A stretch of DNA of 45,527 nucleotides. It comes from Acidobacteriota bacterium. Lineage in GTDB: Bacteria > Acidobacteriota > Terriglobia > Terriglobales > Acidobacteriaceae. The translations under genes were made by a program, and so were the position numbers. Positions 21,988 through 26,140 of the stretch are shown piece by piece; positions within the stretch are counted from its first letter, which is position 1, and every line of letters begins with the position of its first letter. The notes beneath the pieces were generated by a model. That model did no database searches. It saw only the letters and a program-made list of their open reading frames with translations, and was not told where the DNA came from. The stretch lies in assembly GCA_003225495.1 (NCBI GenBank), contig QIAJ01000012.1:1-45527 (forward strand). The letters are read 5' to 3'.

Positions 21988-23071
21988 ATGTCGAGTGCAG
22001 CCCTCAATTCAGCGCAGTCAATCTCTCAACCCGCATCGTATTTCTTAGCTTTAGCGTTGACTCCGGGCCTGGGCCCCACGCGCGTGCGGAAACTGGTCGA
22101 GCACTTCGGAAGCGCGGAGCGAGTGTTTCATGCCAGCCTGACGGAACTGGAAGCGACTGGGATGCCGGTGGTCGCTGCGCAATCGCTAGCGACCGGAAAG
22201 TCGATGGAACTTGCGCAACAGGAGATTGCCAAGGCCGCGGATTGCGACGCAAAGATCATTGCGCTCGAAGACGCTACTTATCCGGCCCGCCTGAAAGAAA
22301 TATCCGACACCTTATGGCCTCGGCATGGCCGAACGGTTGTCGAAAGACCTCGCAGCTCGCGGGCTCGTGATCATTAGCGGAATGGCGCGCGGTGTGGATA
22401 CGGCGTCGCATCGCGGCGCCATCGCTGCGGGTGGCAAGACGGTCGCTGTCTTTGGCACCGGCATTGATGTGATCTATCCGAAAGAAAACAACCGTCTCTC
22501 GGAACAAATACTGTCGCTGGGAGGCGCGTTGATTTCCGAGTTTCCGGTTGGCACGTTTGCCGCGCCGCAAAACTTTCCCATCCGCAACCGCATCATCAGC
22601 GGCATGTCGGCGGGCGTGCTGGTAGTGGAAGCCGCCGAGTACAGCGGAACTCGCATCACCGCCCGTTGCGCTCTCGAACAGAATCGCGACGTGTACGCAG
22701 TTCCCGGCAATGTCACTAATAAAGGATCGTGGGGGCCGAACACTTTAATCAAGCAGGGAGCCAAGCTGGTTGCAACCTGGGAAGACGTTTGGGAAGAACT
22801 ACCTACGGACATACAGGACACCTTGAACTCATTGCGCGATGAATCCTCGCCTCCCGAAACTGCATCTCTATTTCCCGAAGACGCTCCAACGCCGCACGAG
22901 AAAAAGATCATGAGGCTGCTGAAGTCGGATGAGTCGACTCACATCGATGAGATTGTGGAACGCCTGGAACAAGAACTCTCGTCATCTGAAATCTTTTCCG
23001 CCCTCTTCGAACTGGAACTGGATGGGAAGGTGAGGCAGTTGCCGGGGAAGAATTTTGTGAAGAGCTTTTAG
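21988..23071 (+). pseudogene. dprA: DNA processing protein DprA, internal deletion and frameshift
   Basis: DprA loads RecA on incoming single-stranded DNA during transformation. The N-terminal helical domain is intact in one frame (LTPGLGPTRVRKLVEHFGSAE ... YPARLKEI). Near 22300-22310 the homology jumps to another frame, PTPYGLGMAERLSKDLA, and continues normally (GLVIISGMARGVDTASHRGA, IDVIYPKENNRLSE, NFPIRNRIISGMSAGVLVVEA) to a winged-helix-like C-terminus and TAG at 23069-23071. Between the two parts DprA proteins normally have about 30 residues, including the 'VLY-x-x-G' strand and the 'VGTR' strand-loop of the Rossmann fold; these are absent. The lesion is therefore a deletion whose length is not a multiple of three. 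No intact DprA can be made. Dried assembly error is the alternative. Confidence 0.8.
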
Positions 23072-23107
23072 CTGTTAGCTCTTAGCCTTTAGCTCTTAGC
23101 CTTTAGC
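23066..23107 (+). repeat. Left heptad array, six NNTTAGC units
   Basis: Six contiguous, in-phase 7-bp units each end in TTAGC and differ only in the first two bases (TT, TG, TC, CT, TC, CT). The first unit contains the dprA TAG stop codon (23069-23071). The array ends 24 bp before the S23-family start codon. Phase is exact over all 42 bases, so it is a true tandem heptamer repeat. Confidence 0.9.
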
Positions 23108-23130
23108 TTTACATCTCCCGAAGGAGTCAC

Positions 23131-23520
23131 ATGAGGAACTACAAAGATCTGGCGGTTTGGGAAAAAGCACACCGTTTGACACTGGTTATTTACAAGAATA
23201 CACGAGCATTTCCCAACGAAGAAAAATTTGGCCTCACTAGCCAAATGCGGCGTGCATCGGCCTCAATTGCGGCAAATTTAGCTGAGGGATGCGGCCGGCG
23301 ATCTGATGCAGAAATGGGACGGTTCATTCAAATTGCCATGGGTTCGGGAGCCGAGTTGTCCTATCACTTGTTGCTCGCACGAGACCTGGGCTTGTTTGAA
23401 CAACTCATCTTTGAAGGTATGGTGTCTGAGCTCAGTGAAATCATGCGCATGATGTCTTCTCTTTCGCAGAGTATGAAAATTCGCCCGTCAGCCGTGAAAG
23501 TAGATCAGGGGCGAAGCTAA
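23131..23520 (+). CDS. Four-helix-bundle protein, S23 (23S rRNA intervening-sequence) family
   Basis: The 129-residue protein has the hallmark pattern of the S23/IVS family: an N-terminal NYKDLAVWEKAHRL helix, FPNEEKFGLTSQMRRASASIAANLAEGCGR in the middle, then FIQIAMGSGAELSYHLLLARDLG and a final helix ending in MMSSLSQSM. Members form four-helix-bundle pentamers. They are encoded in 23S rRNA intervening sequences, and relatives (Avd) serve diversity-generating retroelements; most stand-alone copies have no known role. AAGGAG seven bases before ATG 23131 sets the start. The TAA stop (23518-23520) lies inside the first unit of the right heptad array. No rRNA or reverse transcriptase is nearby. 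Confidence 0.9.
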   Translation: MRNYKDLAVWEKAHRLTLVIYKNTRAFPNEEKFGLTSQMRRASASIAANLAEGCGRRSDAEMGRFIQIAMGSGAELSYHLLLARDLGLFEQLIFEGMVSELSEIMRMMSSLSQSMKIRPSAVKVDQGRS

Positions 23521-23543
23521 GGGCTAAGAGCTAACAGCCAACA
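23516..23543 (-). repeat. Right heptad array, four GCTAANN/GCCAANN units
   Basis: Four contiguous 7-bp units (GCTAAGG, GCTAAGA, GCTAACA, GCCAACA) are the reverse complement of the left-array pattern. The first unit includes the S23-family TAA stop. A fifth, degenerate unit (GCCCCGA) follows. Units 1-3 match left-array units at 23073-23093 with one difference in 21 bp. Confidence 0.9.
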
Positions 23544-23620
23544 GCCCCGAGCGGTCATTTTGCGCTGCCGCCTGCATTCGTGCTAGCTTCAAATCCGACA
23601 ACCGCCAAACTGAGGAACCA

Positions 23621-26140
23621 TTGTCCAAGGGTCTAGTCATCGTCGAATCGCCCGCCAAGGCGAAAACTATCCAGAAATATCTAGGCAAGGGATTCACTGT
23701 GGACGCTTCCTACGGCCACGTGAAGGACCTGCCGAAGAGTAGTCTTGCGGTCGATGTTGAGAATGATTTCGACACCGACTACGTCGTGATTCCTGGAAAA
23801 GAGAAGGTTCTCGCCAAGCTGAAAAAGCTGGCGCTCTCGGCCGACAAAATCTATCTCGCACCCGATCCGGATCGCGAAGGTGAAGCCATCGCAGCCCATC
23901 TGGCTGATGAACTCAGCGAAGATTCCGGTAAGAAAAAGAAGAAGTCCAAAGCTAAGACAAAAAAGAGCGATGCAGCATCGGCGATTGATGACATTGGCGA
24001 CGACGCCCGCATCAGGCGCGTGACGTTTAACGAGATCACGCAGAAGGCTGTGCGGGCGGCGTTCGAACATCCACGGGACATTGACCGCAACCTGGTTGAC
24101 GCGCAACAGGCTCGCCGCGTGCTCGATCGTCTGGTTGGCTATCAGGTTTCTCCGCTGCTGTGGGATAAAGTACGCCGCGGACTCTCCGCCGGCCGCGTGC
24201 AGACCGTTGCATTGCGCCTGATTGTTGATCGCGAGCGTGAGATCAAGGCCTTTGAGAAAAAGGAGTATTGGACGATTGACGCCCATCTCGCCGGCCCGAA
24301 ACCGCCCGCTTTTGATGCTCGCTTCCTGGGCAAGGGCGAAGAGAAGATTGAAGTTACGAACGGAGAAGACGCCGAGAAGATCCGCGCCGCTCTCGAACAC
24401 GCCGACTGGGTCGTCCGCTCGGCGGAGAAGAAAGAACGACGGCGTAATCCGACTCCGCCTTTTACCACCAGCAAACTGCAGCAGGATTCATCGCGCAAGC
24501 TGCGTTTCAGCGTGAAACGCACAATGATGATCGCGCAGCGCCTGTATGAAGGCATCGAATTGGGCGAAGAAGGGCTCGTCGGCCTGATCACCTATATGCG
24601 TACCGACTCCACCCGCGTCTCACCCGACGCGATCACCGAGGTCCGCGAGTACGTGACCAAAGAGTACGGTCCGACCTACGTGCCCGAGTCTCCCAATACG
24701 TATAAGGAGAAGAAGGAAGCGCAAGCGGCGCACGAGGCGATTCGTCCAACCTCGGCGATGCGGCAGCCGGATCAGGTCAAGCAGTATCTTCAGGAAGATG
24801 AGTTCAAGGTTTACAAGTTAATCTGGCAGCGCTTTGTCGCTTCGCAGATGACTCCAGCGGTCTTCGACCAGACCACAGTCGACATTGATGCAAAATCCGG
24901 CAGCGATGTGTTCTGGTTCCGCGTGACTGGCTCTGTGATGAAGTTCGACGGCTTCCTGAAAGTCTATGAAGAATCGAAAGAAGGCAAGGACGAAGAAGAC
25001 GAGGAACTGAAGCACAAGCTGCCGCCACTCGAAGCGGGCCAGAAGTTGACGCTGAAAGAACTGAAGCCGGAGCAGCACTTTACGGAGCCACCTCCACGAT
25101 ACAACGAAGCTTCGCTCGTCAAAGAGCTTGAAGAGCGCGGCATTGGACGGCCTTCGACCTACGCCACGATTTTGAGCACGATCCAGGAACGTCAATACGC
25201 GACCAAAATCGGCGGAAAGTTTACTCCGACAGAAATCGGCCTGGTTGTGACCGACTTGCTGGTGGAAAACTTCAAAGACATCTTCGACTTCCAGTACACC
25301 GCCCATCTGGAGGAAGAGCTCGACGACATTGAAGAAGGCAAGGAGACGTGGACCGACACGCTCGCGGAGTTCTACAAAAAGTTCGCCAAGGATCTCAAAT
25401 ACGCCGAGAAGCACATGGAAAACATCAAGCGTATGGAGAAGCCGACGGACGAAAAGTGTGAACTCTGCGGCTCGCCTCTGGTCATCAAGTGGGGCAAGCA
25501 CGGATCGTTCTACGCGTGCAGCACCTACGACAAGGAAAATCCTGACACCTGCAAGTTCACGAAAGAGAATCCGATCAACCTGCCTGACCTTGACTCCGCC
25601 GACCTGCAGGAAACGGCGCAGGAGGAATACTGCGAGAACTGCGGCCGCGTCATGGTGCTGAAGCGCGGTCGCTTCGGCCAGTTTATGGCCTGCACGGGAT
25701 ATCCCGATTGCAAGACCACCCGGCGTCTCGATCAGGGCAAGCGTGTTCCGGATATTCCGCTCGAAGAAAAGTGTCCGGATTGCGGCCGCAACATGATTAT
25801 CCGTCACGGTCGTTTCGGAGAATTCACTTCGTGCAGCGGATATCCCGAGTGCAAGTATGTGAAGCAGAATTTTATTGGTGTGAAGTGTCCACTGTGCGGA
25901 GAAGGCGAGCTGGTCGAAAAGCGGGCACGCAAGGGCAACACATTCTACGGATGTTCGCGCTCTCCGAAGTGCAAGTTCACTTCAGCGGCCAAGCCGATTC
26001 CAGAGAAGTGTCCGGATTGCGGGCACGAATTTCTAGTCGAGCGCCTTCGCAAGGACGGACCGGTAATCGCGTGTCCCAATAAAGAATGTGACTACGAACG
26101 CGCTGTTGAGGGCGCGGCAGGCGCGATTCCGGCTGTATAG
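23621..26140 (+). CDS. topA: DNA topoisomerase I (type IA)
   Basis: The 839-residue enzyme relaxes negative supercoils through a 5'-phosphotyrosine intermediate. The Toprim domain starts with GLVIVESPAKAKTI and has the acidic metal site in YLAPDPDREGEAIA (~82-95). The active-site Tyr325 is in LITYMRTDSTRVS. A lysine-rich insertion (~105-123, GKKKKKSKAKTKKSD) interrupts the Toprim region after the DPDREGE motif. The C-terminus has five four-cysteine zinc ribbons beginning near residues 610, 670, 715, 755 and 800, such as CENCGRVMVLKRGRFGQFMACTGYPDC. The start is TTG 23621, supported by GAGGA five bases upstream. It follows the S23-family gene by 100 bp and normally pairs with dprA. Confidence 0.97.
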   Translation: MSKGLVIVESPAKAKTIQKYLGKGFTVDASYGHVKDLPKSSLAVDVENDFDTDYVVIPGKEKVLAKLKKLALSADKIYLAPDPDREGEAIAAHLADELSEDSGKKKKKSKAKTKKSDAASAIDDIGDDARIRRVTFNEITQKAVRAAFEHPRDIDRNLVDAQQARRVLDRLVGYQVSPLLWDKVRRGLSAGRVQTVALRLIVDREREIKAFEKKEYWTIDAHLAGPKPPAFDARFLGKGEEKIEVTNGEDAEKIRAALEHADWVVRSAEKKERRRNPTPPFTTSKLQQDSSRKLRFSVKRTMMIAQRLYEGIELGEEGLVGLITYMRTDSTRVSPDAITEVREYVTKEYGPTYVPESPNTYKEKKEAQAAHEAIRPTSAMRQPDQVKQYLQEDEFKVYKLIWQRFVASQMTPAVFDQTTVDIDAKSGSDVFWFRVTGSVMKFDGFLKVYEESKEGKDEEDEELKHKLPPLEAGQKLTLKELKPEQHFTEPPPRYNEASLVKELEERGIGRPSTYATILSTIQERQYATKIGGKFTPTEIGLVVTDLLVENFKDIFDFQYTAHLEEELDDIEEGKETWTDTLAEFYKKFAKDLKYAEKHMENIKRMEKPTDEKCELCGSPLVIKWGKHGSFYACSTYDKENPDTCKFTKENPINLPDLDSADLQETAQEEYCENCGRVMVLKRGRFGQFMACTGYPDCKTTRRLDQGKRVPDIPLEEKCPDCGRNMIIRHGRFGEFTSCSGYPECKYVKQNFIGVKCPLCGEGELVEKRARKGNTFYGCSRSPKCKFTSAAKPIPEKCPDCGHEFLVERLRKDGPVIACPNKECDYERAVEGAAGAIPAV

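Follow-up and report, generated by a model that had tools for sequence, protein, structure and literature searches.

Small inverted-repeat elements such as REP/RAYT elements and MITEs occur in ORF-bearing and ORF-less versions. An S23 ORF is carried by the intervening sequences (IVSs) of 23S rRNA in Leptospira, Coxiella and others, where, on the account given in PMC4990558, it lies in sense orientation in a loop closed by a terminal inverted stem and the insert is suspected of being mobile or selfish. In the Coxiella IVS, as described there, three tandem heptamers (GACAGAT) stand 5′ of the S23 ORF in a number that varies between strains; cleavage by RNase III is also described, and mobility of the IVS had been suggested earlier (PMC4990558). 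The TAACTGA heptamers of Beggiatoaceae are likewise short intergenic tandem arrays of 7-nt units, as PMC4679880 presents them; the term 'S23' is absent from the text of that paper. Avd of diversity-generating retroelements belongs to a related protein family that its description links to PF05635 (PMC10053308).

Many genomes carry genes annotated as S23 or 'four helix bundle' to which no function is assigned. In the openly accessible literature we found no paper linking S23 genes generally with inverted tandem arrays, and earlier notice elsewhere is possible. A figure legend in PMC10910872, on CRISPR mining, names '23S rRNA IVP'; it is a guess that S23-adjacent arrays were perhaps taken there as CRISPR-like. 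Here we analyse an S23 gene lying between dprA and topA, and framed by inverted heptad arrays, in a 45,527-nt stretch of acidobacterial DNA; this whole stretch is the window referred to below.

The S23 gene between dprA and topA

All features of the locus are on the plus strand. The 3′ part of dprA (22325-23071), recognized by DprA profile models, ends in a TAG stop codon (23069-23071) inside the first heptad of the left array. dprA is represented by two ORFs (21988-22377 and 22325-23071) that overlap and differ in frame; as assembled, the gene therefore looks broken or shortened. The left array (23063-23110) consists of six in-phase NNTTAGC units, with TTAGC at 23068, 23075, 23082, 23089, 23096 and 23103, and its unit is AGCTNTT. 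A Shine-Dalgarno-like GAAGGAG (23120-23126) lies 4 nt 5′ of the start of the S23 ORF (23131-23520; 129 aa), which was identified from the ORF list and profile searches. The right array (23515-23545) is inverted relative to the left and supplies the stop codon of the ORF, TAA at 23518-23520, within its first unit; exact GCTAA occurs at 23516, 23523 and 23530 and the degenerate form GCCAA at 23537. The downstream neighbour is topA (23621-26140), from the ORF list and a profile search. The sequence-only reading of this DNA had described six left-hand units over the dprA stop, an inverted right-hand array and four right-hand units over the S23 stop; all six left-hand units, the inversion, the overlap and three right-hand units were recovered exactly, the fourth being degenerate.

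The two 31-nt arms (23064-23094 and 23515-23545) show 90% complementarity. A long stem formed in the RNA fold of 23055-23550 (z −2.6), and 1 of 100 shuffles was as stable. The locus therefore has terminal inverted repeats, as MITEs and insertion sequences do, and a long terminal stem that encloses the S23 ORF, as rRNA IVSs do. Between the arms there is no ORF of ≥60 aa other than S23, and no transposase or reverse transcriptase lies inside the element.

The window protein scored 120.1 bits against PF05635 (cut-off 33.8, E 6e-35) and 117.5 bits against TIGR02436 (cut-off 24). Its assignment to the S23 family, already proposed by the sequence-only reading, is thus firm, both scores being over the curated cut-offs. 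A profile built from 26 relatives matches, by sequence, the structures 2gsc (E 2e-44) and 2rld, and family membership predicts that S23 is a pentameric four-helix bundle. One S23 gene was found in the genome of the window, the assembly of which is 91.6% complete, and S23 genes are present in 147 of 297 acidobacterial genomes. The S23 gene is protein-coding and under purifying selection: dN/dS was 0.03-0.18 in 11 of 15 close S23 pairs, several of which have a common member (Flavobacteria L123, L125, L128), and synonymous change was saturated in the other four.

Inverted arrays and their units at S23 genes across phyla

The layout of array, S23 ORF and inverted array is general and extends over many bacterial phyla. 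We located 181 S23 genes in 171 loci and scored 177 of them for arms, four being left out for short flanks or runs of N; the score is for an inverted repeat between the 200 bp upstream and the 200 bp around the stop, with a threshold of ≥15. The samples are non-random, the acidobacterial loci (30 first and 60 later) having been picked from the best PF05635 matches and the 80 cross-phylum loci being the best 80 of 555 by likeness to the window protein, and they include near-copies (L049/L052, L101/L102). Of the 92 acidobacterial S23 genes, 82 had inverted arms that reached the threshold and 10 fell below it, compared with 1 of 125 control genes reaching it on those contigs. Of the 85 cross-phylum S23 genes, 55 reached it and 30 fell below, compared with 1 of 212 controls reaching it. 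A period of 7 in both flanks was present at 56/92 acidobacterial genes (controls 0/125) and 34/85 cross-phylum genes (controls 2/212). Period 8 formed a minority (12/92 and 9/85, respectively), and each remaining period between 4 and 13 accounted for at most three genes per set. Arms paired with their own partners at 136 of 172 loci and with swapped partners at 4 of 171.

The S23 stop lies within the downstream array in 53 of 118 elements, and in L088, L091 and L181, for example, the array encodes the last S23 residues as well as the stop codon. Stops in all three frames were present in 48/118 downstream and 57/114 upstream arrays, compared with 0.21 for position-shuffled units; the arrays are stop-rich, though not solely the downstream ones. 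In L074 and L088 the upstream array runs in the opposite reading direction. In Flavobacteria L123, L125 and L128, S23 is >92% identical, the neighbourhoods are conserved and the arrays are under the threshold, as if these array-free genes had settled as ordinary host genes.

The units vary from locus to locus. Among the 147 of 181 S23 genes with a clear unit, its period was 7 in 114, 8 in 25, 9 in 6 and 6 in 2. After 65 homologous-flank pairs had been set aside, 241 S23 pairs that are ≥55% identical and lie at non-homologous sites had a unit similarity of 0.609, against 0.478 ± 0.013 when permuted (0/2000), and equal periods in 0.90, against 0.63 (0/2000). The same held for 145 pairs between phyla, selected by the same identity and site rules (0.596 against 0.477, 0/2000). 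Similar S23 proteins at unrelated sites and in different phyla thus have similar units, which argues that array, ORF and array are inherited as one piece. For S23 pairs of <45% identity, unit similarity within a genome (0.495, 37 pairs) was barely above that between genomes (0.468, 8363 pairs); the unit therefore goes with the protein and owes little to the host. As an example, AGCNNTC-like units, in at least one arm, accompany proteins 62-72% identical in Cyanobacteria, Planctomycetota, Nitrospinota, 'Deltaproteobacteria', Actinobacteria, Methylobacillus and Acidobacteriota, a set that includes L074 and L088 with their reversed upstream arrays. Hosts in the cross-phylum set are given by record title and bins may hold foreign contigs, which makes single cases less safe than the whole.

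Relatives of the window provide a view of one site over time. The window's family has 60 genomes in this sample; the dprA-topA interval was read in 50 of them, and both genes were in the stretch in 48. S23 was present at 17 of these junctions (13 with an intact ORF, four interrupted), three held short remnants and 28 were without it, so that junctions with and without the insert, the comparison proposed by the sequence-only reading, both exist among relatives. Two further intact junctions (L070 and L056) were included because they bear S23. The S23 copies cluster on the tree, with 5 changes against 14.3 when shuffled on a tree of few columns and many open forks; most dprA-topA copies therefore appear to descend from an old insertion and to have been mostly inherited in place.

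The arms at these junctions agree within a genome and differ between genomes. In the nearest relative of the window, S23 is 75% identical and the unit is GGCTCTT rather than AGCTNTT; elsewhere the junction units are AGCTNTC, AGCTNCT, CGAGCTN, CCGCTNT, CGGTTNT and CCGGGTN. Both arms yielded a unit at 15 of 19 junction loci, and the two agreed at 14 of the 15, L214 being less clear. In fixed windows, arm pairing averaged 19.6 with the own partner and 11.0 with swapped partners (0/5000 permutations), and a score of 15 was reached in 15 of 19 pairings with the own partner, compared with 58 of 342 with a swapped one. It follows that the units of both arms change together. The sequence-only reading would have given way to a dprA-S23-topA order conserved alongside diverging, non-pairing flanks; the order is old in the family, yet the two flanks have diverged in step and in most cases can still pair.

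Occupied and unoccupied sites were also compared, by eye, among 12 species of one genus. At the first site, one species has an S23 cassette and a close relative has an S23-less hairpin of related unit; among the remaining species, one has an unrelated repeat and the others have other or shorter sequence. At the second site, one species has an S23 cassette and the others read have none. In this comparison one locus per search had no clean two-sided match or matched poorly. No target-site duplication or clean excision was seen among the compared sites, which are highly diverged. By eye, the repeats at the intergenic sites L156 and L199 of genus g44 (L359-L385) differ between species and include hairpins with CTCTGTGAC-like and ACAGGAT units; they may represent additional repeat families of broadly this type.

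We read the locus as a compact, IVS-like mobile cassette made up of the left heptad array, the S23 ORF and the inverted right array, and put the probability of this reading at roughly 0.6. A mobile IVS-like element was one of two proposals of the sequence-only reading, which as a whole is partly supported; this proposal gains strong support: inverted arrays are general at S23 genes, the unit travels with S23 across sites and phyla, and there are filled and unfilled sites. The purifying selection on S23, and the sense bias and lack of wobble asymmetry described below, also count in its favour. Weighing against it are the compared sites, with neither target duplication nor clean excision, an element that brings no transposase, the inheritance in place at dprA-topA, the S23 genes with arms below the threshold, the array-free Flavobacteria, the reversed upstream arrays of L074 and L088, and the comparisons of S23-less hairpins given below.

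Rival readings of the arrays and of their movement

Heptad hairpins also occur without S23. In the 4.54 Mb genome of the window the pattern TTAGCNNTTAGCNNTTAGC was matched 12 times, at 7 places, and its reversed control had no match, so the pattern is far from chance. At six of these places there is no S23 gene; they hold three-unit heptad arrays, TTAGC being left-hand and GCTAA right-hand as around S23. All six are intergenic; from their neighbours, judged by eye, some seem to lie in pheS-pheT and ribosomal-protein intervals. Arrays widely found without S23 together with S23 genes without arrays had been named as a finding that would count against a cassette; this holds in part, the former existing at these six places and the latter in some Flavobacteria. 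Another genome, G121 (L300-L319), has 38 S23-less inverted-array hairpins in 400 kb, with many different units of 6, 7 and 8 nt, and shuffled sequence gave none; 0 to 3 such hairpins were found in each of the other 21 genomes sampled. Chance or low complexity was accordingly dismissed as the source of the arrays, the reversed pattern having no match and shuffled sequence no inverted arrays.

These hairpins share vocabulary and polarity with the S23 arrays, and they could be independent intergenic elements into whose loops S23, as an invader, homes wherever the unit matches; the arrays would then be its target and not its ends. The six places with the window's unit fit this reading, as does the first genus site, where the S23 element of one species corresponds to a related-unit hairpin in another. 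In G121, 15 of 38 hairpins match a resident S23 unit at ≥0.7 and 0 of 38 do so in reversed polarity, though random S23 units match equally well (0.458, against 0.456 for the genome's own). The same comparison gave no support to a descent of the G121 hairpins from resident S23 copies. Across 22 genomes, mostly at 40 kb per genome and hence with low power, hairpin density did not correlate significantly with S23 number (Spearman 0.22, p 0.33). Homing would have to be unit-specific to account for a unit that goes with related S23 proteins from phylum to phylum and depends little on the host genome, and it sits poorly with arrays that encode the C-terminus and stop of S23, as in L088, L091 and L181. 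Truncated S23 remnants beside arms at L218 and L232 likewise fit deletion derivatives of a cassette. We consider homing into pre-existing hairpins unlikely.

Alternatively, S23 could be a settled host gene, with an mRNA stem that controls its expression or splits an operon transcript by RNase III-type processing; control of the mRNA by the stem was the other proposal of the sequence-only reading. The purifying selection on S23 and its old residence between dprA and topA are in keeping with this, and in Coxiella the stem of the rRNA IVS is cut by RNase III, as reported in PMC4990558. Orientation points the same way: where the two neighbours agree in strand, S23 is co-directional with them in 99 of 106 cases, compared with 120 of 148 for other genes on the same contigs (Fisher p 0.005). 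Set against an even split the bias gives p 6e-22, but the much milder figure against other genes of the same contigs is the one to use. The upstream neighbour is on the S23 strand in 121 of 138 cases, a count that has no control set. Expression of S23 by read-through from the upstream gene is probably the simplest reading of this bias.

The arms themselves argue against a function in the message. Among their sense-strand mismatches at 136 loci there were 166 G·U and 181 A·C (p 0.45), and the wobble lean per locus went one way in 47 and the other way in 46. With no excess of G·U over A·C, the arms bear no sign of selection for a stem in the sense RNA, and selection at that level was rejected as an explanation; the lack of wobble asymmetry points instead to copying at the DNA level. 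The single G·U pair in the window's stem, which the sequence-only reading had pointed out, is thus not part of any wider trend. Nor does a settled gene account for the spread across unrelated sites and phyla, for the 28 of 48 dprA-topA junctions without S23, or for the interruption or truncation of S23 at 7 of the 20 junctions that keep a trace of it. We regard control through an mRNA stem as improbable, a step below homing.

If the cassette is mobile, it could be moved in trans by a host HUH transposase (Y1, RAYT-type), in the way of REP hairpins. Numbers of Y1_Tnp and S23 matches are correlated over 297 acidobacterial genomes (Spearman 0.46, uncorrected for genome size and transposon load), within the window's family (0.46, n 31) and in 17 Y1-matching genomes of family f21 (0.51); where a genome has some 14-15 S23 or Y1 matches, the figure is to be read as at least that many. 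Yet 34 of 147 S23-bearing genomes have no Y1 match. Among 20 Y1 loci read in six genomes, inverted flanks were present at 15, by eye ordinary palindromes and not heptad arrays, and a tandem run scoring ≥10 stood on one side of 5. Ends in common between RAYT and S23 elements were discarded on the same 20 loci, where the tandem runs that accompany a few of the Y1 genes proved to be neighbouring repeats. Movement by Y1 is accordingly very doubtful to us.

Least credible of all is movement by a reverse transcriptase, like that of Avd with the reverse transcriptase of diversity-generating retroelements: the sense bias would suit an RNA intermediate and the protein resembles Avd at the family level (NF033474, E 0.0009, under the cut-off), but the window protein scores 19.5 against a cut-off of 80 and a search of 21 genomes gave no RVT_1 match in 10, the S23-rich G149, G265, G064 and G125 included, so that a reverse transcriptase in the genome was rejected as a requirement. 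The window's own contig, C261, gave no RVT_1 match; those of this genome are on contig C126.

A proposed element and its place among known systems

For a mobile cassette, the arrays would be the ends of the element and would move jointly with the ORF into intergenic sites, with insertion mostly downstream of host genes and in sense with them. The ORF would be translated from its own ribosome-binding site, on a transcript probably supplied by read-through from upstream, and the array would often give the stop codon. The arms would be kept alike at the DNA level, most likely by slippage within arrays together with copying from arm to arm, either through template switching in the quasi-palindrome or during transposition; such copying would allow the unit to drift in both arms together. 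S23 itself most likely binds the array hairpin and may aid the movement or upkeep of the element.

More tentatively, and with somewhat less than even confidence, these elements might form a pan-bacterial mobile class, with inverted 6-9-nt arrays that change in concert and a unit-recognizing four-helix bundle as sole protein. The S23 inserts of rRNA would then be a special case and the S23-less hairpins deletion derivatives. If S23 genes belong to mobile cassettes whose tandem ends vary, a large gene family would be explained and the rRNA IVSs would be tied to a wider element; many short intergenic hairpin repeats in bacteria may also be accounted for, and a system would be at hand for direct tests of how a changing 7-nt unit is recognized.

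Compared with REP/RAYT elements and MITEs, the ends of the window element are variable tandem arrays of 6-9-nt units and its ORF is S23, with no transposase. Avd works, according to its description in PMC10053308, with a reverse transcriptase and a pair of template and variable repeats, whereas the window's contig has no reverse transcriptase. The TAACTGA heptamers of Beggiatoaceae, as portrayed in PMC4679880, are direct repeats of one fixed unit, mostly just 5′ of start codons, with one inverted case. Unlike the S23 ORF of the 23S rRNA IVSs, that of the window lies between the protein genes dprA and topA, outside an rRNA helix, and here both arms are inverted tandem arrays whose units are specific to the locus and whose layout recurs across phyla.
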